A model generated the notes under the pieces. The model saw nothing but the letters and a program-made list of their open reading frames with translations, made no database searches and had not been told where the DNA came from. A program made the translations under genes and the position numbers. Positions 2,866-36,640 of a stretch of DNA of 64,000 nt are shown one piece after another. The stretch comes from Limisphaerales bacterium. GTDB lineage: Bacteria; Verrucomicrobiota; Verrucomicrobiia; Limisphaerales; AAA164-E04. The stretch lies in contig JAMASS010000004.1 of NCBI GenBank assembly GCA_024761205.1, forward strand, positions 186,001 through 250,000, read 5' to 3'. Numbering within the stretch: the first letter of the stretch is position 1; every line of letters begins with the position of its first letter.

Positions 2866-3945
2866 ATGGACCTGAACGCTCATATCGATAAGTTTGAAAG
2901 CCGGTATGCCGAGATAGAAGCGGCCTTGGGAGATCCATCGGTCTTTGGCAATCAAAAAAAGTCCCAAAAGTTGTCCCGGGAATACAATCGAGTAAAGAGC
3001 CTGTTCGAGCTAGGGCGCGAATACCGCAAAGCAGCCGAGGAACTCAAAGAGAACCAGAAAATCATCGAGACCGAGCCCAGCGATTCTGAAATGGCACAGC
3101 TGGCTCAGGAGGAAATCACCCGACTCACCAAATCTCAGGAGGCTGCGATGCTCGCACTCCGGGCAGGGATTTTGCCGCCCGATCCTACCGATTCACGCGA
3201 CACGATCGTTGAAATCCGGGCTGGCGCCGGTGGTTCCGAGTCCGCCCTGTTCGCCGCCGATCTTTACCGCATGTTTACTCGTTACGCCGAACGTCGCAAT
3301 TGGAAGATCGAACTCATGGACACTAGTCCTTCAGATTTGGGCGGCTTCAAAGAAATCATCTTCACGGTCAAAGGTGAGGATGTTTTCAAGCGATTGAAAT
3401 ACGAAAGCGGTGTCCATCGAGTCCAGCGCGTACCTGTCACCGAGGCGCAAGGACGGGTGCATACCAGCACAACCACCGTGGCCGTGCTTCCGGAAGCGGA
3501 GGAAATCGACATCGAAATTAAGCCAGAGGAGATCGAAATCTCCGTTTGCCGTGCCTCCGGCCCTGGCGGCCAAGGGGTGAACACCACTGACAGCGCGGTC
3601 CAGGTTCAGCACAAAGACTCCGGGCTCATCGTTCGCTGCGCGGACGGTCGTTCCCAACAGCAAAACAAGGTCAAAGCAATGACCGTGCTCCGATCACGCC
3701 TGCTCGAGCGAAAGATCGCCGAGGAAAACGCCGAGTACGCCGCCCAGCGAAAGGCCCAAGTGGGCACAGGCGAACGCAACGAACGCATCCGCACCTACAA
3801 CTTTCCGCAAAACCGAGTGACGGACCATCGCATCGAACTCACACTGTACAACCTACCCGCGCTGATTGATGGTGACATGGACAGCGTGATTGATCCCCTA
3901 ATGGCCGATGACATTGAAAAACGACTGGCCGAGGCAAATCCATGA
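2866..3945 (+). CDS. prfA: peptide chain release factor 1
   Basis: Class I release factor that reads UAA and UAG and triggers peptidyl-tRNA hydrolysis on the ribosome. The 359-residue product has the catalytic GGQ loop (residues 234-236, in SGPGGQGVNT) and the stop-codon-recognition tripeptide as P-V-T (residues 190-192), the PxT pattern of RF1 rather than the SPF of RF2. The start at 2866 (MDLNAHIDKF) agrees with the family length; the frame is open to 2818 without homology. The stop overlaps the start of the following HAD gene by 4 bp (ATGA), suggesting translational coupling. Confidence 0.96.
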   Translation: MDLNAHIDKFESRYAEIEAALGDPSVFGNQKKSQKLSREYNRVKSLFELGREYRKAAEELKENQKIIETEPSDSEMAQLAQEEITRLTKSQEAAMLALRAGILPPDPTDSRDTIVEIRAGAGGSESALFAADLYRMFTRYAERRNWKIELMDTSPSDLGGFKEIIFTVKGEDVFKRLKYESGVHRVQRVPVTEAQGRVHTSTTTVAVLPEAEEIDIEIKPEEIEISVCRASGPGGQGVNTTDSAVQVQHKDSGLIVRCADGRSQQQNKVKAMTVLRSRLLERKIAEENAEYAAQRKAQVGTGERNERIRTYNFPQNRVTDHRIELTLYNLPALIDGDMDSVIDPLMADDIEKRLAEANP

Positions 3946-4520
3946 CCTTCGGAGGCATCATCTTTGACTGCGACGGGACCTTGGCCGATACCATGCCGCT
4001 ACACTGGGAGGCGTGGTGCACGGTGTCGGAGCGTCATGGGTTCCAATTCTCGAAAGAACGCTTCTACGCACTCGGCGGCGTGCCTTCCCAAGATATCCTC
4101 AAAATGATCAACGAGGAACAGAATCTCAATCTTGATGCTCACCAAATTTCCAAGGAAAAAGAGGAGGCATACCTTCCCAACCTCGGAGCGGTTTATCTGA
4201 TCGAACCCGTTATCGAAGTCGCCTTTTCCAACCACGGCAAAGTTCCGATGGCAGTAGCAACCGGGGGCACCCGGAAGATCATCTCCCAACTTTTGGCCCG
4301 CCTCGAGATTGACCACCTTTTTGATCACCTCGTCACCAGTGAGGACGTGAGTCGACAGAAACCGGCACCGGATATTTTTCTTGAAGCCGCTTGCCGAATA
4401 AATGTTCCGCCGGAAAAGTGTCTCGCCTATGAGGACACGAATCTTGGCCTACAAGCCATTGCTTCGGCGGGTATGAAGGGTGTAGATGTCCGGCGATTGC
4501 GCGCCGAACTCAGCTGCTAG
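3942..4520 (+). CDS. HAD-family hydrolase, beta-phosphoglucomutase-like
   Basis: Haloacid-dehalogenase superfamily phosphatase or phosphomutase, cytoplasmic. Motif I is DCDGT near the N-terminus (FDCDGTLADT), with a helical cap after it, then motif II (VATGG), a lysine in SRQKPAPDIF (motif III) and YEDTNLG (motif IV). The 192 residues are short but normal for subfamily IA. The start overlaps the prfA stop by ATGA. The substrate cannot be read from sequence; sugar phosphates are usual for this group. Its 3' end overlaps the convergent AI-2E-family gene by 11 bp. Confidence 0.88.
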   Translation: MTFGGIIFDCDGTLADTMPLHWEAWCTVSERHGFQFSKERFYALGGVPSQDILKMINEEQNLNLDAHQISKEKEEAYLPNLGAVYLIEPVIEVAFSNHGKVPMAVATGGTRKIISQLLARLEIDHLFDHLVTSEDVSRQKPAPDIFLEAACRINVPPEKCLAYEDTNLGLQAIASAGMKGVDVRRLRAELSC

Positions 4521-5874
4521 GTGGCTCCTGCCTCCGGGCTGAGGCCCTCGTCACTTCGGCGTCCAATAACGGTTTGCCCGAGTCCGTCCATTCGCGCCGC
4601 CGCCACACGTAACGAAACATCAGCGTCCGCAATGCAGCGGTTAACGGAATCGCTAGCACGCCGCCGGTGATGCCCCCTAGTAGCGTCGTACCGACCATGA
4701 TGGAGATGATCACCGTCAGGGGATGAAGCCCGATGCGGTCACCAATAATCTTTGGCGAGATGACAAAACCCTCCAACATCTGGACAAACACAAACACACA
4801 CAAAGTCAAGATGGGATGGACGATGTTATTGTGTTGGATAATCGAAATAGACAAAGCGGGCACAATGCTCAGCATCACACCCAGGTACGGCACGATCCCC
4901 AAGATACCGGCCATAAAGCCGAGCAGCACACTGTATCGCAGATTAATAATCGAAAACCCGATCATCAAAAGAATGCCCACGCACATGGCCACCAACACCT
5001 GAGACCGGAAGAAGACAATTAACGAATCGTTGATAGATCGCAGCACAAAGATGATTTCCGCCTTCATCTTCGACTCGCGAATGGGCAAGTAGTCCGTCCA
5101 GTTATTCTGAATGCCCTTCTTCTCTGCCAAAAAGTAAAAGACGTATACAGGGACCAGAGCGAACCCCACCAACAACCCGAACCAGGAAGTGATTTGCGAT
5201 AGCTTATCCAAGGACCACTGACCAATCTTACCAAGAATGGCTGCCGCCTTTCCGATCAGCATACCGTCAAAAGCAAAACTGGCAGTCATATCCGTTTCGG
5301 TATCGGATTCACTCGCCGTCATCGGAGCGCTGCTTGTCATTGAGCCGTCGCTCAGCGTTTGATCCACATCTGCGCCTTGCTTGTTGTCCTCCGATGGTTC
5401 TTTTGCTTCCTGGGTAAAAAACCCAGAAAGCATTTCGGGGACCTTGATGTTTTTTAATACCGCCGAGACATCAATTTTGAAAGGCGGGTCGCGGAGGAAC
5501 CCGTTGATTTTATTGGTCAAGTTTTCCTCGTATTTCGGCAATGCTTCACGAAGCGCACCCACCTCATTAATCAAACGCCACCCCACGGTGGTCAACATCC
5601 CGACTTGAAATAACAATGCCAGGAAAAATACCAGGATGATTGCCCAGGGACGGGGGATATTCCGTCTTTGGAAATAATCGACCACGGGGTCCAACAAATA
5701 GGCGATCACTCCCGCCACGGCCAACGGAAGCAAAACCGAAGATAATTGCTTGGCCACCCAGCCCACCCCCACAAAGACCAGCGCCACCAAGACCAGAATC
5801 ACGGCGACCGCCAAAGCCGTGGCTGCAGTCCAAACGATCTTGCCTTGATCTTCTGAGGGTGCTGGAAATTTCAT
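4510..5874 (-). CDS. AI-2E/PerM family membrane transporter (UPF0118)
   Basis: Multi-pass inner-membrane protein of the AI-2E transporter (PerM/YhhT) family, whose substrates are mostly unproven. The N-terminal third has two hydrophobic segments, including a long one at about residues 17-60, then a soluble region (about 90-200) with an acidic low-complexity insert rich in E, D, S and T. The conserved C-terminal membrane core follows (for example ILGIVPYLGVML and ISIMVGTTLLGGITGG). With 454 residues it is longer than the usual 350-370, the extra length being the acidic insert. The ATG at 5874 is well supported. Confidence 0.87.
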   Translation of the reverse strand: MKFPAPSEDQGKIVWTAATALAVAVILVLVALVFVGVGWVAKQLSSVLLPLAVAGVIAYLLDPVVDYFQRRNIPRPWAIILVFFLALLFQVGMLTTVGWRLINEVGALREALPKYEENLTNKINGFLRDPPFKIDVSAVLKNIKVPEMLSGFFTQEAKEPSEDNKQGADVDQTLSDGSMTSSAPMTASESDTETDMTASFAFDGMLIGKAAAILGKIGQWSLDKLSQITSWFGLLVGFALVPVYVFYFLAEKKGIQNNWTDYLPIRESKMKAEIIFVLRSINDSLIVFFRSQVLVAMCVGILLMIGFSIINLRYSVLLGFMAGILGIVPYLGVMLSIVPALSISIIQHNNIVHPILTLCVFVFVQMLEGFVISPKIIGDRIGLHPLTVIISIMVGTTLLGGITGGVLAIPLTAALRTLMFRYVWRRREWTDSGKPLLDAEVTRASARRQEPPSS

Positions 5875-5898
5875 TCGGAGTATACTGTCACGAGAAAT

Positions 5899-6735
5899 CT
5901 AAAATCGTTTCTTCTTTTGACCTCGTCGGCCGAGTCTTCTCGATTTCGCTGCAGCGGCACGCACGGCATTCATCAGCGCGGCCCGAAGCCCCCCCTTTTC
6001 CAACTCGTGAACCCCATCGATAGTCGTGCCTCCCGGACTAGTCACCATGTCCTTGAGTGGACCGGGGTGCATCCCCGTTTCCAGCACCATCTTCGCCCCG
6101 CCCAACACGGTCTGGGCGGCGAGCCGGGTCGCCGTATCTCTTGGCAAACCGGCAGCAACGCCCCCATCACTCAACGCCTCGATGATCTGAAAAACGAAGG
6201 CCGGACCGCTCCCACTGAGACCGGTCACGGCATCGAGCAGCGATTCGGAAACTCGAACGGCAACACCTACCGCCGAAAGCAGCTGCTCTGCGAGTTGCCC
6301 ATCAGCTTCGCTCGCATGTGTTCCCAAGGCAAACCCTGATGCTCCCACCCCTACCATGGCGGGCGTGTTCGGCATCACACGAATCACGCGAGCACCGGTG
6401 AGCAAGTTTTCTTCAAAAATGGCGAGGGGCACACCGGCCGCAATCGAAACCAAAAGGTGAGACGTTGTAAAATGAGGGTTTATCCCGACGAGAGCCTCCT
6501 CTACTTTATCCGGCTTTACCGCGACAAAAATAACATCCGCCCTCTGGAGAACCTCCATCGGTTTAGTTGTTGCCCAAGCGCCGACCGCGGACTGAAAAGC
6601 TTCCCGTGCCTCACCGAATGGGTCGGTCCCAATGACCTGATCCGAAGCCACAGTTTGCTTGTCCACCATGCCTTTAGCCAAGGCCACGGCCATCTTCCCG
6701 GTCCCAATAAATCCGATTCTCGCTGATATGCCCAT
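5899..6735 (-). CDS. proC: pyrroline-5-carboxylate reductase
   Basis: Reduces 1-pyrroline-5-carboxylate to L-proline with NAD(P)H, the last step of proline synthesis. The N-terminal dinucleotide motif is IGFIGTGKMAVAL, and the family segments VAVKPDK, RVMPNTPA and GLSGSGPAFVF are all present, as is the C-terminal signature around MVTSPGGTTIDGVHELE. Length is 278 residues, normal for ProC, with an added basic tail (RRLGRRGQKKKRF). The ATG at 6735 (MGISARIGFIG) is chosen over an in-frame upstream start at 6801 without homology. Confidence 0.95.
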   Translation of the reverse strand: MGISARIGFIGTGKMAVALAKGMVDKQTVASDQVIGTDPFGEAREAFQSAVGAWATTKPMEVLQRADVIFVAVKPDKVEEALVGINPHFTTSHLLVSIAAGVPLAIFEENLLTGARVIRVMPNTPAMVGVGASGFALGTHASEADGQLAEQLLSAVGVAVRVSESLLDAVTGLSGSGPAFVFQIIEALSDGGVAAGLPRDTATRLAAQTVLGGAKMVLETGMHPGPLKDMVTSPGGTTIDGVHELEKGGLRAALMNAVRAAAAKSRRLGRRGQKKKRF

Positions 6736-32784: not shown

Positions 32785-33099
32785 ATGAAGAAAAACATTA
32801 CCATTATCGCCTTGCTCGCCGTCATTATTACCAGCCTGACGATCACTCTGAGGAACTTGGCGCCGAATACCGATGATGATTACCGCTCGTCCTGAGAACG
32901 AGCATTCATCAAGAAATTCGACAATGACGGCGATGGTGAATTGAGCGGAGAAGAACAGGAGGCTGCGGAGAAAGCAATGGATGAGCACCTTTTGGCCAGC
33001 TTACCGAACAAACGTCCAGAGAGGACAAATTTGAGAATTAAACACAGGACTCCATGTTTTTGCTTCTTCGATCTTCGGGGCGAGGCTTCCTTGGCCTAG
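32785..33099 (+). pseudogene. small membrane-anchored EF-hand protein with in-frame stop
   Basis: From ATG 32785 the product starts with a signal anchor (MKKNITIIALLAVIITSLTI) and a short linker. An in-frame TGA at 32893-32895 interrupts it; the same frame continues AFIKKFDNDGDGELSGEEQE, a canonical EF-hand calcium loop (DNDGDGELSGEE). The tail after LPNKRPERTN has lost protein character. Likely an exported calcium-binding protein before the stop arose (Arg CGA to TGA would explain it). Confidence 0.7.
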
Positions 33100-33514
33100 G
33101 GATTTTGCCGCTTTCATGACCTTCTCGCTGGCGTCCGGATTTTCCCCGCTGCGGCTAGGCTTGAACCGCCCCGAGGCGGACCTGTCAGCGCGGGGGGACT
33201 CTCCAAGCCTGATTTCGTTGCAACCGCTCGCACGAATGGAATCCCCATCTTCAAGCGCGACCCAGAAAGCGGGAACGCCACCGCCCCAACAATCCAAGCC
33301 GTCTTCCGCCCGCCGCCCAGCTCCCTCCTAGATGGCAAGGACGAGAACCTCTCCGGCTAGTTTACACCGGATGCCTGACACCCGCTGGCGGCGCGGCAAG
33401 GAGCGCAGGCCACGCCCGGAACCCCGGCAAATTTCTTGGGAATTACATACTTTCACTAGCCGGGGAGGATGTCAATTATCTTATGGTTGTCATTGGCGGA
33501 AAGGCTGGCAATTT
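33100..33514. other. decayed DNA ahead of the second IS1595 remnant
   Basis: Both strands have open frames of similar quality to 33357, so no coding strand can be chosen. At 33436-33452 lies ttgggaattacatactt, found again exactly at 43188-43204. The left end of the IS1595-like element should be in this region, but I could not identify its inverted repeat. Confidence 0.35.
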
Positions 33515-34001
33515 ATGGACCGGACGGGAAAGATACAGACACTGAGCATCAGGCAATTCTTCCGGAGGTTTCCTGATGAAGTGGCTGTTGTTGGCCTATC
33601 TGGAAGCAAAGCGGTGGCCTGTGGCTGGTCGTGTCCGGGCGTTCCCGGTGCGTGAGACCACCAAGGACACTTTACAATCCACCATTAGAGAAAACGTCCG
33701 GCGCAGTTTGTGGCTCTACACCGACGCTTACTCTGCCTATTGCGGCTTGATCGCCTATGAACATGAGGCGGTGTCTCACTACACGGGCGAATATGTCCGA
33801 GGGCAAGCTCATACCAATTCCATTGAATCCTTTTGGGCCTTGCTCAAGCGGGGGATTTATGGCACCTTTCACCACATCAGTCCGAAATATCTGCACCAGC
33901 ATATGGCGGAATTTGAGTGGAGACAGAATATTCGTGACTTCGACACGCTCGGACAAATGGCGGTTGTTGCCGTAGAACTGGATAGCAGGGTGCAAGCATG
34001 A
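33515..34001 (+). pseudogene. IS1595-family (ISXO2-like) transposase remnant, copy 2
   Basis: From ATG 33515 the start MDRTGKIQTLSIRQFFRRFP is the family N-terminus; a frame change follows, then AYLEAKRWP, the point where the zinc-ribbon normally begins. The sequence jumps directly to GRVRAFPVRETTKDTLQ, so the zinc ribbon, first Asp and about 120 residues are deleted. The rest is well preserved: LYTDAYSAYCGL (second Asp), GQAHTNSIESFWALLKRG (Glu) and ISPKYLHQHMAEFEWR. The stop overlaps the next gene's ATG (ATGA), suggesting that the methyltransferase is a translationally coupled passenger gene. Confidence 0.87.
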
Positions 34002-34684
34002 GTGTGGCGCTTTCTTCTGAGCTGGACACTAACGGATATTCCCCCCTCAGCAGCGTATGGGAAGGCAGAGACGTTGATCTCATCGAGGCCATGTTGCAGT
34101 TCTATCCGGTAATACCGCCGCACCCCATCCTTGATGCCACCTATAATGCAGGCCGCTTTTGGGCCGGCTCCACGCGGCAAGTGGTTTCGATGGATATCGA
34201 CCCCAAATATAAGCCGGACATAGTGGCGGACAATCGCGAAATGCCCGGCGTGAAATCTGAATCCTTCAGCGTGGTCGTATACGATCCACCGCACGTCGGC
34301 CCACAAGGACGGGATAAAAGCACTAAGCGTTTCGACGTAGACTTTGGAGCCACCATGGAATGCGGCAAGCAGCAGGATTGGACTTTAAGTTATCTATATC
34401 CTCCGTTTTTGGCGCAGGCCAAGAGGGTACTGCAGCAAGATGGCCTTCTGCTGGCGAAAATCACGGACATGGTGAACAACCATATGTCCCGATGGGCACA
34501 CTGCGACTTCATGCGAATGGCCGAGGACGCCGGGTTTACCGTGTGCGATTTGATCGTGAAAGTCAGAGCCGGCCCAATGACATCCAACCGGTGGAAAACC
34601 GCTCACCACGCGAGGAAACGGCACTGCTTTTGGATCATATGCAGAAACAGCTCCCGATGCGAACGTATAACCCGCTCAGTGTAG
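33998..34684 (+). CDS. SAM-dependent DNA amino-methyltransferase-like protein
   Basis: A 228-residue methyltransferase. The SAM-binding motif I region is ILDATYNAGRFW, the following acidic strand is VSMDIDPKYKPD, and motif IV is VVYDPPHVGPQG, the D-P-P-H form of N6-adenine/N4-cytosine enzymes. KAKR(V)LQQDGLLLAKI-type sequence and the ending TAHHARKRHCFWIICR look complete, so this gene appears intact. It starts at the ATGA overlap with the IS1595 transposase remnant and overlaps the downstream Eco29kI-like endonuclease start by 46 bp. Expected role: protective methylation in a type II restriction-modification pair. Confidence 0.8.
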   Translation: MSVALSSELDTNGYSPLSSVWEGRDVDLIEAMLQFYPVIPPHPILDATYNAGRFWAGSTRQVVSMDIDPKYKPDIVADNREMPGVKSESFSVVVYDPPHVGPQGRDKSTKRFDVDFGATMECGKQQDWTLSYLYPPFLAQAKRVLQQDGLLLAKITDMVNNHMSRWAHCDFMRMAEDAGFTVCDLIVKVRAGPMTSNRWKTAHHARKRHCFWIICRNSSRCERITRSV

Positions 34685-35240
34685 ATGAGCTTGGGAAAAA
34701 CGCAGCGCGTGCTCTGATGGGGTACCCCGCTGTCGCATTGCCGCCGGAACCGCCGTTTCCGGGCGCTGGTGTTTATACCTTGCACTACACTGGATCATTC
34801 AATGCTTACGCTGGAATGCGAGAAGACGAGCCAATTTATGTAGGGGCAAGGCTGACCCGCCAGGACGGCGGCTCGGGCGGGAAGAAGAGTGGCAATCAAC
34901 GCGGATCTTGTGTAAAAGGTTGGCCAAGCATGCAGAGTCCATAGAATACGCCACAAATCTGGACTTGAAAGACTTCCAGTGCAGGTGGCTTGTGTTGGAT
35001 CAGGTCTGGATTGGGCTCACCGAACAAGTATTGATCGCTGGTTATCGACCCGTATGGAATGTCGCTGTTTCTGGGTTCGGGATCAATGCTCCGGGGAAAG
35101 GCAGGGCTAATCAGCGCAAATCCGAGTGGGACACATTGCATCCAGGACGACCTTACGTCGAGAATCTGGTGGCAAGAGACGAGACAGTTGACGACCTGAT
35201 AGAACAGACAAAGCAGCACAGGAGAGGGAGGAGGCGATGA
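34639..35240 (+). pseudogene. Eco29kI-family (GIY-YIG) restriction endonuclease, frameshifted
   Basis: From ATG 34639 the product reads PLSVDELGKNAARALMGYP and the GIY half of the nuclease motif (AGVYTLHYTGSFNAYAG) followed by EPIYVG, the YIG half. A frame change at 34854-34858 follows; the correct continuation is KADPPGRRLGREEEW, then LAKHAESIEYATNLDLKDF, VWIGLTEQVLIAGYRPVWN, PGKGRANQRKSEWDTLHPG. One inserted A would restore one chain. Family members cut within GC-rich palindromes (Eco29kI: CCGCGG). The frameshift removes the catalytic C-terminal half, leaving the methyltransferase alone. Confidence 0.88.
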
Positions 35241-35521
35241 AAAAACAAAGGCTAAGCAACCTGCGAAACCTTTGCAGGCTGATTACGTTACAGCTACGTC
35301 GCGCAGAAACTCCGCCGAAAATATTCTATTGACACTGTATCTCGCGGTATGACCGGAAGACGGCTCACCTATCAGGAGTTGACGGCATGATCGCCATAAA
35401 TCCGAAGGAAAATCCGCTTTTCGGGAAGTTCGAGAAAGTGGCTGAATCGCGAGTCAGTCGCGGGCTGCTAAGATGGAAATTGCGGACAAGTCCGTTTCGA
35501 TGGAGTTGCTTGTTCGATCAT
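35237..35521 (+). other. chain of tiny ATGA-overlapping frames after the endonuclease
   Basis: Very short frames follow each other with 4-bp ATGA overlaps: MKKQRLSNLRNL... from 35237 (overlapping the endonuclease stop), then MTGRRLTYQELTA at about 35349-35390, then MIAINPKENPLFGKFEKVAE from 35386. A third frame (KAKQPAKPLQADYVTATSRR) between looks more coding than the first. These may be remnants of further passenger genes such as a controller, broken by frameshifts. No family is recognised. Confidence 0.4.
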
Positions 35522-36638
35522 TAAACAAGGCGACTTAAATTATGCCGCATAATGGTGTACGATACGAGCACCCCAACACGAGATGAAAGCTGTGGCGAGA
35601 AAGCTCGAGATTACCGATGCCGATGTGATGCGCATCGCCGTACAACAGGAAATCCAACGCTCGGACGAGTCGAGGTACGATCACCGGCTTCACGGCCTGT
35701 TGTTGGCGACCGGAGGGCAGAGTTGCCGCCAGGTCGCCCAATGGTTCGATGAGGATCCGCGAACGGTGCGGCGCTGGGTCAGAACCTTTGAGGAGAGGGG
35801 TTCGATGGGCTGCGCGACGGTGAAAGAACCGGTCGTCCACGCACGCTCAGGCCGGATCAATGGTCGTCGCCGGAGCGGGACCTGCGTTGCCGACCGGATG
35901 ACTTCGGCTTGGCCGGGCACTTGTGGGGCGGCGGGTTGCTCGCCGAACACTTGCGGCGCCATTACGATGTGAAATTGGGGGTGCGCCAGTGTCAGCGGTT
36001 GTTCAGGCAGATGGGGTTTCGATTTCGAAAGCCGCGGCCGCAGGTGGCGCAGGCCGATCCGCAACGCCTTGCCGCGTTTAAGAAAACTGCGCCGTCTGGC
36101 ACGACGCGAGGACATTGAGCTGTGGAGTCAGGATGAATGCCATTTTCAACGACACGGAACCCGCTGTCGGGTCTGGGTTCCGCCCGAGGAAAAAGATCCG
36201 GTCGTCGCCCACGCGCCAGTCCGTCGCCTGCTTTGGTGCCGTCAGTCTTACGCAGCGGCAAGTTCGTTCACACCCTTTCGCCGGTGTTCAACGCCGCCAC
36301 CTTCGAGGCGTTCCTGAAGGTGCTGCTCCGACGCTGCTCGCGCAACCAGAAAATGGTCGTCATTCTCGACAACGCACGCTACCACCACGCCAAGCTGCTC
36401 AAACCACTGTTGAGGGCCCACCGAACGCATCTCAACCTGCTGTTTCTGCCGCCTTACAGCCCACAGCTCGCGCCGATCAAGAGAGTTTGGAAACTTGACG
36501 CGGCGGCTGGCGCCTCACCATCTCTACTTCAGCAGCCTGGAGGAGTTGTCGGCCGCTGTGGAGGCCTGCTTCGACCAATGGCGAAAACCGAACCGTGTTC
36601 TGCAACGGTTATGCGGCATTACTTAAGTCGTTATGTTT
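35522..36638 (+). mobile_element. IS630-family insertion sequence
   Basis: The element is bounded by inverted repeats of about 35 bp: the left end runs 35522-35556 (taaacaaggcgacttaaat...), and the right end 36605-36638 gives, in reverse, taaacataacgacttaagt.... The two match at about 28 of 35 positions, including the shared block atgccgcataa. Each end begins with TA, the dinucleotide that IS630 elements duplicate on insertion. It interrupts the passenger region of the IS1595-like unit. Its single transposase is broken (next entry). Confidence 0.85.
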
Positions 36639-36640
36639 AA
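35583..36640 (+). pseudogene. IS630-family transposase with several frameshifts
   Basis: The helix-turn-helix part is in the first frame (LLLATGGQSCRQVAQWFDED, TVRRWVRTFEERG). After a shift come LDGLRDGERTGRPR-type and the block GHLWGGGLLAEHLRRHYDVK, FRKPRPQVAQADPQR; after another, ELWSQDECHFQRHGTRCRVW (first Asp) and later KMVVILDNARYHHAKLL (second Asp). The third catalytic residue lies in LAPIKRVWK where NPIE is usual, so the Glu is Lys. At least three frame changes plus this substitution make it inactive. Confidence 0.88.

Follow-up and report, generated by a model that had tools for sequence, protein, structure and literature searches.

A locus in the genome of a Limisphaerales bacterium (Verrucomicrobiota; assembly GCA_024761205.1, contig JAMASS010000004.1) is very likely a decayed transporter insertion sequence (tIS) of the IS1595 family, in which a transposase gene is followed by a Type II restriction-modification (R-M) pair as cargo within the same inverted repeats. 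That the copy at this site forms such a unit is inferred, and no activity was measured. The locus lies in the window, i.e. the whole stretch of 64,000 nucleotides that was analysed (contig positions 186,001 to 250,000), whose numbering is used below. Related IS1595 elements carry a different R-M pair from copy to copy, and it is likely that the group spreads defence genes between bacteria. That R-M systems pass between distant bacteria is known, but what carries them is often unclear. If our reading is true, they would be carried directly by a small IS-type element that encloses an R-M pair within its ends and swaps it for others, and cassette exchange, translational coupling and addiction by the cargo would become testable in laboratory strains.

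Layout of the element in the window

All features described here lie on the + strand. The element opens with a left terminal inverted repeat of the IS1595 family (GGGAATTACATACTTTCACTAGCC; 33438–33461), which was recognised by motif match and at which the alignment of a second genomic copy begins exactly, the flank outside being different. The left end is thus at 33438 and not, as originally predicted, at 33515. Positions 33515–33580 hold a remnant of the transposase N-terminus (MDRTGKIQTLSIRQFFRRFPDE), the frame of which matches the N-terminus of full-length IS1595 transposases, and the C-terminal half of the internally deleted gene, including the DDE domain, follows at 33576–34001 (PF12762 DDE_Tnp_IS1595, 3.1e-26; NCBIfam transpos_IS1595, NF033547, 2.3e-25). 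The zinc ribbon is deleted from the transposase in both the window copy and the second copy; it is present (PF12760) in the transposases of the related loci L059 and L064 and of L072, a locus in the window's own genome. Comparison with full-length relatives further suggests that the window transposase is without the part expected to hold the first catalytic Asp.

The transposase stop (TGA, 33999–34001) and the methyltransferase ATG share an ATGA at 33998–34001, the same type of junction as in elements with a full-length transposase. The methyltransferase is an open frame of 228 aa (33998–34684) for an amino-type (DPPH) enzyme with a Rossmann-type model of moderate confidence, a weak N6_N4_Mtase match and no C5 match. 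Its structure model has a class I methyltransferase fold (mean pLDDT 68) with M.TaqI among many matches, a result too weak to name the methylated base.

The nuclease starts inside the methyltransferase end. Its 5′ part (P0002, 34642–34944) contains the GIY and YIG motifs and matches PF09517 RE_Eco29kI with an E-value of 0.0011, and a second frame (P0003, from 34890 to 35240) matches the same family at 3.3e-40. The reading frame is broken in a G-run at 34843–34846, an indel relative to homologues for which mutation and assembly error cannot be distinguished, and the 3′ part continues in the shifted frame at 34847–35240, in which the active-site R, H, E and N are kept at their positions (PMC1952068). 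R.Eco29kI itself is a GIY-YIG nuclease with these four active-site positions (PMC1952068), and all six of its active-site residues (Y, Y, R, H, E, N; PMC1952068) are present here, split over both sides of the frame break. Methyltransferase and nuclease genes adjoin, and by gene content and adjacency the pair is a Type II R-M system; a common recognition site and the activity of both enzymes are inferred only, the nuclease frame being broken and methylome data being absent.

Downstream of the pair, a 31-aa frame (35237–35332) that is probably no gene opens on an ATGA at the nuclease stop, and another small frame on an ATGA (35387–35524) is a frameshifted relative of the second copy's small ORF (KENPLFGKFEK / KDNPYYEKFEK). 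The latter overlaps the C-terminal end of a second, different IS1595 transposase (DTVSRGMTGRRLTYQELTA and its stop, at about 35331–35390), as judged by comparison with other transposase C-termini. Together, this C-terminus and the small frame point to a possible chimera of two elements. The original prediction had been made from the letters and reading frames only. It held for the shared ATGA, for the DPPH (amino-type) enzyme, for the endonuclease start inside the methyltransferase end and for further tiny frames overlapping by ATGA, at 35237 and 35387. It did not hold for an endonuclease present as such, the Eco29kI-family gene being interrupted by one frameshift, and the overlap of the tiny frame at 35387 with a second transposase has to be added.

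A frameshifted IS630-like element with inverted repeats of about 30 bp (35521–36640), a neighbour outside the unit whose left end is also present elsewhere in the same genome, sits where the right end would be expected. Inverted repeats outside 33.4 kb and 35.5 kb had been proposed as a check: the left one was found at 33438, and no right one was found in the window or the second copy, where local alignments were no better than shuffles. Both repeats, as expected of the IS1595 family, are found in the relatives L059, L061 and L060. With no right end in the window, a target duplication cannot be read there, and the unit character of the window copy remains an inference. As part of the whole best explanation, this copy is very likely a fossil, dead as a self-moving element, with its nuclease broken as sequenced and only the methyltransferase frame open, although this too is inferred from sequence alone. 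Just left of the element, a repeat of ~360 bp (33040–33401) is 98% identical to positions 1265–1626 of the same contig (C34:1265-1626) and recurs in part elsewhere in the genome, at several sites.

Complete related elements in other genomes

Complete units were sought as inverted repeats flanked by direct repeats. L059 contains an element of 2729 bp (3863–6591) with inverted repeats matching at 21/22 positions and the duplication CTCCGGTT, and L061 one of 2608 bp (3850–6457) with inverted repeats matching at 18/22. A third, in the window's own genus (L060, OX638380; about 3789–6367), has matching ends and an exact 7-bp duplication. In all three, the whole transposase-methyltransferase-nuclease unit is enclosed by repeats and 7–8 bp duplications. 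This fits the IS1595 family, which is characterised by GG ends and duplications of 8 bp (PMC8101967). The defining property of a tIS, a passenger inside the repeats, is therefore met in L059, L061 and L060, and is inferred from the same gene order in the window. The 8-bp duplication is perfect (8/8) in L059, in L109, L119 and L127 (see below) and in L072 and L073 of the window's own genome, and matches at 7/8 in L061 and L121; L064 has 24-bp end repeats without a duplication. The claim that the R-M pair travels as passengers of an IS1595-family element has thus largely held, with support from homologues and from the enclosing repeats.

Methyltransferase homologues and their neighbourhoods

A scan of 84,980 species genomes returned 33 close homologues of the methyltransferase, nearly all at 74–81% identity, of which 32 loci were usable. 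They belong to Planctomycetota, Chloroflexota, Pseudomonadota, Cyanobacteriota, Acidobacteriota, Myxococcota, Verrucomicrobiota and other phyla. In 10 of these 32 (L037, L040, L053, L055, L058, L059, L060, L061, L063 and L064), the methyltransferase gene is immediately preceded on its strand by an IS1595 transposase or a fragment of one, and the order transposase-methyltransferase-nuclease recurs in many phyla. The link would have been chance had homologues never been found beside IS1595 genes; this refutation failed. No IS1595 transposase was present upstream at 21/32 usable loci, and one locus (L035) has a transposase downstream. On the methyltransferase tree, the association requires at least six changes, meaning that IS1595 elements have repeatedly gained or lost the pair. 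This, together with the majority of homologues that have no upstream IS1595, implies that the pair also spreads without an IS1595 element. Relatives of the methyltransferase in plasmids and phages amounted to matches of 24–27% only, and in a sample of 388 genomes from the phylum, the window's own methyltransferase was the only one found.

An Eco29kI-like nuclease, downstream or convergent, is nearby in 28 of the 32 usable loci. The suggestion that pairing a DPPH enzyme with Eco29kI may be new therefore failed as a peculiarity of this site, the pairing being common in the family. The contrast behind it, that Eco29kI is partnered by a cytosine-5 enzyme, agrees with a REBASE survey, in which CCGCGG systems are of the cytosine-5 type except for an m4C system of Deinococcus (PMC10855626). 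Since the R.Eco29kI site CCGCGG contains no adenine, the DPPH enzyme would have to act on the N4 of cytosine if the site is kept. Under that condition, its action would be unusual for a DPPH motif; the methylated base itself was not addressed.

Two observations concern individual homologues. The methyltransferase genes of L060 and L061 each contain one in-frame TAG and are otherwise conserved. L059 and L061 have sister methyltransferases in IS1595 elements and different Eco29kI-like nucleases (short and convergent in L059, longer and codirectional in L061), which suggests a swap of the nuclease alone.

Exchangeable cargo behind the transposase

The window's own genome has 42 IS1595 matches. 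A second copy lies on the window's contig at a distance of about 182 kb (C34:37225). It shares the left end and the transposase deletion with the window copy, at 94% identity over 461 bp, but differs in its flanks and its cargo. Here, a small ORF is followed by genes for an N6N4 methyltransferase (4e-42) and an EcoO109I-type nuclease (7.7e-50), with ATGA at each junction. The internal deletion is found again, therefore, in a copy with another R-M pair. Because the deleted transposase is common to two copies with different flanks, we consider it likely, as an inference, that the element was moved in trans by another IS1595 transposase of the genome. The different cargo behind the same left end and deletion shows exchange at or near the transposase 3′ end; how this exchange occurs is not shown. 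At a third site (C45), an IS1595 transposase is accompanied by an N6N4 methyltransferase and a REase_II-type protein.

The same variety was seen in the sequence around related transposases in the same genomes. Both ends and a duplication delimit an element of 3009 bp with an N6N4 methyltransferase fused to HNH (L109), one of 2809 bp with a D12 methyltransferase and a NotI-type nuclease (L119; PF12183, 1e-39), one of 2696 bp with an MTase_II/REase_II pair (L127) and one with a D12 methyltransferase (L121). C5 methyltransferases occur in L111, together with a GIY-YIG protein, and in L136; L123 has an N6N4 enzyme, L135 a further MTase_II/REase_II pair, and L122 and L144 a methyltransferase without a recognised nuclease. 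When the flanks of L109 were joined after removal of the element, one continuous frame of 300 codons ran through a repeat-domain protein, which means that element and cargo were inserted there as one piece. The second ORFs of these elements constitute a source of candidate restriction enzymes that family models have so far not recognised. A search for the empty site of L127 in genus and family relatives matched only the neighbouring tRNA and was uninformative.

To what extent this holds for IS1595 loci at large was estimated in genomes from the alphaproteobacterial class of L059, drawn regardless of methyltransferases. Counting transposase loci outside the query genome, a methyltransferase was scored within 500 bp at 8 of 24 unselected IS1595 loci (N6_N4 4, N6_Mtase 2, C5 1, D12 1) and at 1 of 30 control loci with a PF01609 transposase in the same kind of genomes, the one being HsdM (one-sided Fisher p = 0.004). 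The loci are related, so this value is a guide only and not an exact probability. No R-M cargo was found in a phylum-wide IS1595 sample, and the trait accordingly belongs to a sub-group.

In most related elements, the cargo starts on the transposase's last base as ATGA or GTGA, and the transposase end before the junction often reads LIADNGLPSGARS. Elements with a full-length transposase have the same ATGA/GTGA junction, which disposes of the refuting possibility that the internal deletion created the overlap in the window. The transposase stop lies in an RTGA at 28/49 related loci, compared with 2/16 in the phylum-wide IS1595 sample and 9/29 control transposases. Given the latter number, the four-base motif alone is only moderately enriched; the striking part is that a methyltransferase starts at the RTGA, rather than the motif itself. 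Translational coupling through the ATGA is an inference, to be read with the same control figure in mind.

Mechanism and rival explanations

In the mechanism we propose, the transposase would move the whole unit by its inverted repeats and make an 8-bp target duplication, as shown on relatives by sequence. The cargo would probably be translated by coupling from the transposase message and need no promoter at the new site, and a methyltransferase placed before the nuclease would let methylation of host sites precede cutting; both steps are inferred. From established R-M biology, it may further be inferred that foreign DNA is fended off by the pair and that cells pay a cost for losing the element, an effect that would stabilise the element. 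Elements would swap their cargo at the transposase 3′ end or close to it, the variation being shown and the process not. What the sequences establish is cargo inside the ends in relatives, target duplications and varying cargo behind a constant transposase.

Defence islands gather IS and R-M genes, and an IS1595 copy might simply have landed upstream of an unrelated R-M pair. Such a chance neighbourhood could draw on the many methyltransferase homologues without an adjoining IS1595, on the frequent proximity of R-M genes to IS copies (PMC3031569) and on the 42 IS1595 matches in this genome. Yet, same strand and order, the stop/start overlap and the enclosing repeats with target duplications recur in several phyla, and methyltransferases are more frequent beside IS1595 transposases than beside those of another family in genomes of the same kind. 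We therefore regard this explanation as very unlikely, and as a general account it is refuted by L059, L061, L109, L119 and L127. Also very unlikely is that the cargo methyltransferase mainly regulates transposition, e.g. by methylating the element ends or the transposase promoter, with the nuclease being secondary. In its favour, methyltransferases are what the cargo has in common, the nuclease family being variable, and L122 and L144 have no recognised nuclease. Against it, the methyltransferases come from unrelated families with presumably different target sites although the element ends are conserved, a second REase-type ORF is usually present, and some cargo (P63C, BRO, SocA/Panacea) includes no methyltransferase at all.

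A closer contest is posed by the idea that recombination of two neighbouring IS1595 elements, and not one transposition of a complete unit, brought the R-M pair to this site. The second, different transposase C-terminus and small frame after the nuclease (35331–35524), as at the cargo start in the second genomic copy, speak for it; the order of left end, transposase, ATGA, methyltransferase and nuclease, which is that of intact relatives, speaks against it, and on balance we slightly disfavour it. Recombination would in any case be compatible with cargo status and bear on no more than the final assembly step here. Returning to the tIS reading, a bolder version holds that one clade of IS1595 elements is a dedicated Type II R-M carrier, with the transposase 3′ end (often LIADNGLPSGARS then RTGA) as a fixed docking and translation-coupling point for swapping unrelated cassettes, delivering ever-changing DNA specificities across phyla. 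We lean towards this version, albeit by a narrow margin.

Relation to known systems

Passenger-carrying tIS, including those of IS1595, and methyltransferase passengers in IS elements have already been described (PMC11891212), and R-M genes have been shown to move in association with IS (PMC3031569). The IS1595 tIS, such as ISNha5 (Siguier et al. 2009, cited in PMC11891212), resemble the present elements in their IS1595 transposase, GG-starting repeats, 8-bp duplications and passengers unrelated to transposition. However, the passenger of ISNha5 is a transcription regulator (PMC11891212), whereas here complete R-M pairs start on the transposase stop and differ within one clade. The IS1380 family likewise includes tIS with a methyltransferase passenger (PMC11891212), but these have a transposase of another family, and the bearing sections of that paper mention neither an R-M pair nor cargo exchange. 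IS-flanked composite forms also mobilise R-M genes by insertion-sequence machinery (PMC3031569 and references therein); in these, two IS copies surround the genes, while here one IS-type element encloses the R-M pair within its ends.

With regard to the enzymes, the Eco29kI R-M system has a nuclease of the same family (PF09517) with R, H, E and N at the same places in the active site (PMC1952068), but CCGCGG systems in REBASE are reported to be of the cytosine-5 type (PMC10855626), in contrast to the small DPPH amino-methyltransferase found here. Closer in this respect is the DraI m4C R-M system of Deinococcus radiodurans (M.DraR1 / R.DraR1; PMC10855626), which also combines an amino-type methyltransferase with an Eco29kI-like GIY-YIG nuclease. 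Yet, M.DraR1 belongs to the alpha class, has SPPY and is encoded ten ORFs away from its nuclease, in contrast to the DPPH motif, adjacent genes and mobile unit described here. In the open-access literature searched, which leaves most subscription journals outside its scope, there was no description of an IS1595 group with interchangeable R-M pairs.

Other cargo and a second kind of cassette

Several elements carry cargo of other kinds. A P63C-domain protein in L141 (855–3767) and a BRO-N protein in L153 start on the transposase ATGA, as do small proteins (130–147 aa, NWVKARAACT...FNxL) in L145, L155, L156 and L160; L155 and L160 also have an N6N4 methyltransferase about 420 bp further on. Within the window's own genome, IS1595 elements in L072 (4731–6760, C41; identical 20-bp ends) and L074 (5246–7306, C10) contain a SocA/Panacea-domain protein and a small membrane protein, possibly a toxin-antitoxin pair, and the 1936-bp IS1595 element of L073 (4785–6720, C18) contains a retropepsin-like aspartyl protease and a small ORF. 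Finally, an Acidobacteria MAG (L049, 4864–7237) offers another, different type of mobile R-M cassette. In it, the same methyltransferase and an Eco29kI-like nuclease occupy a 2374-bp unit that has no transposase but shows inverted repeats matching at 21/22 positions (GGTAGTGGTACAGTTTGAAAA) and a duplication of 8 bp.
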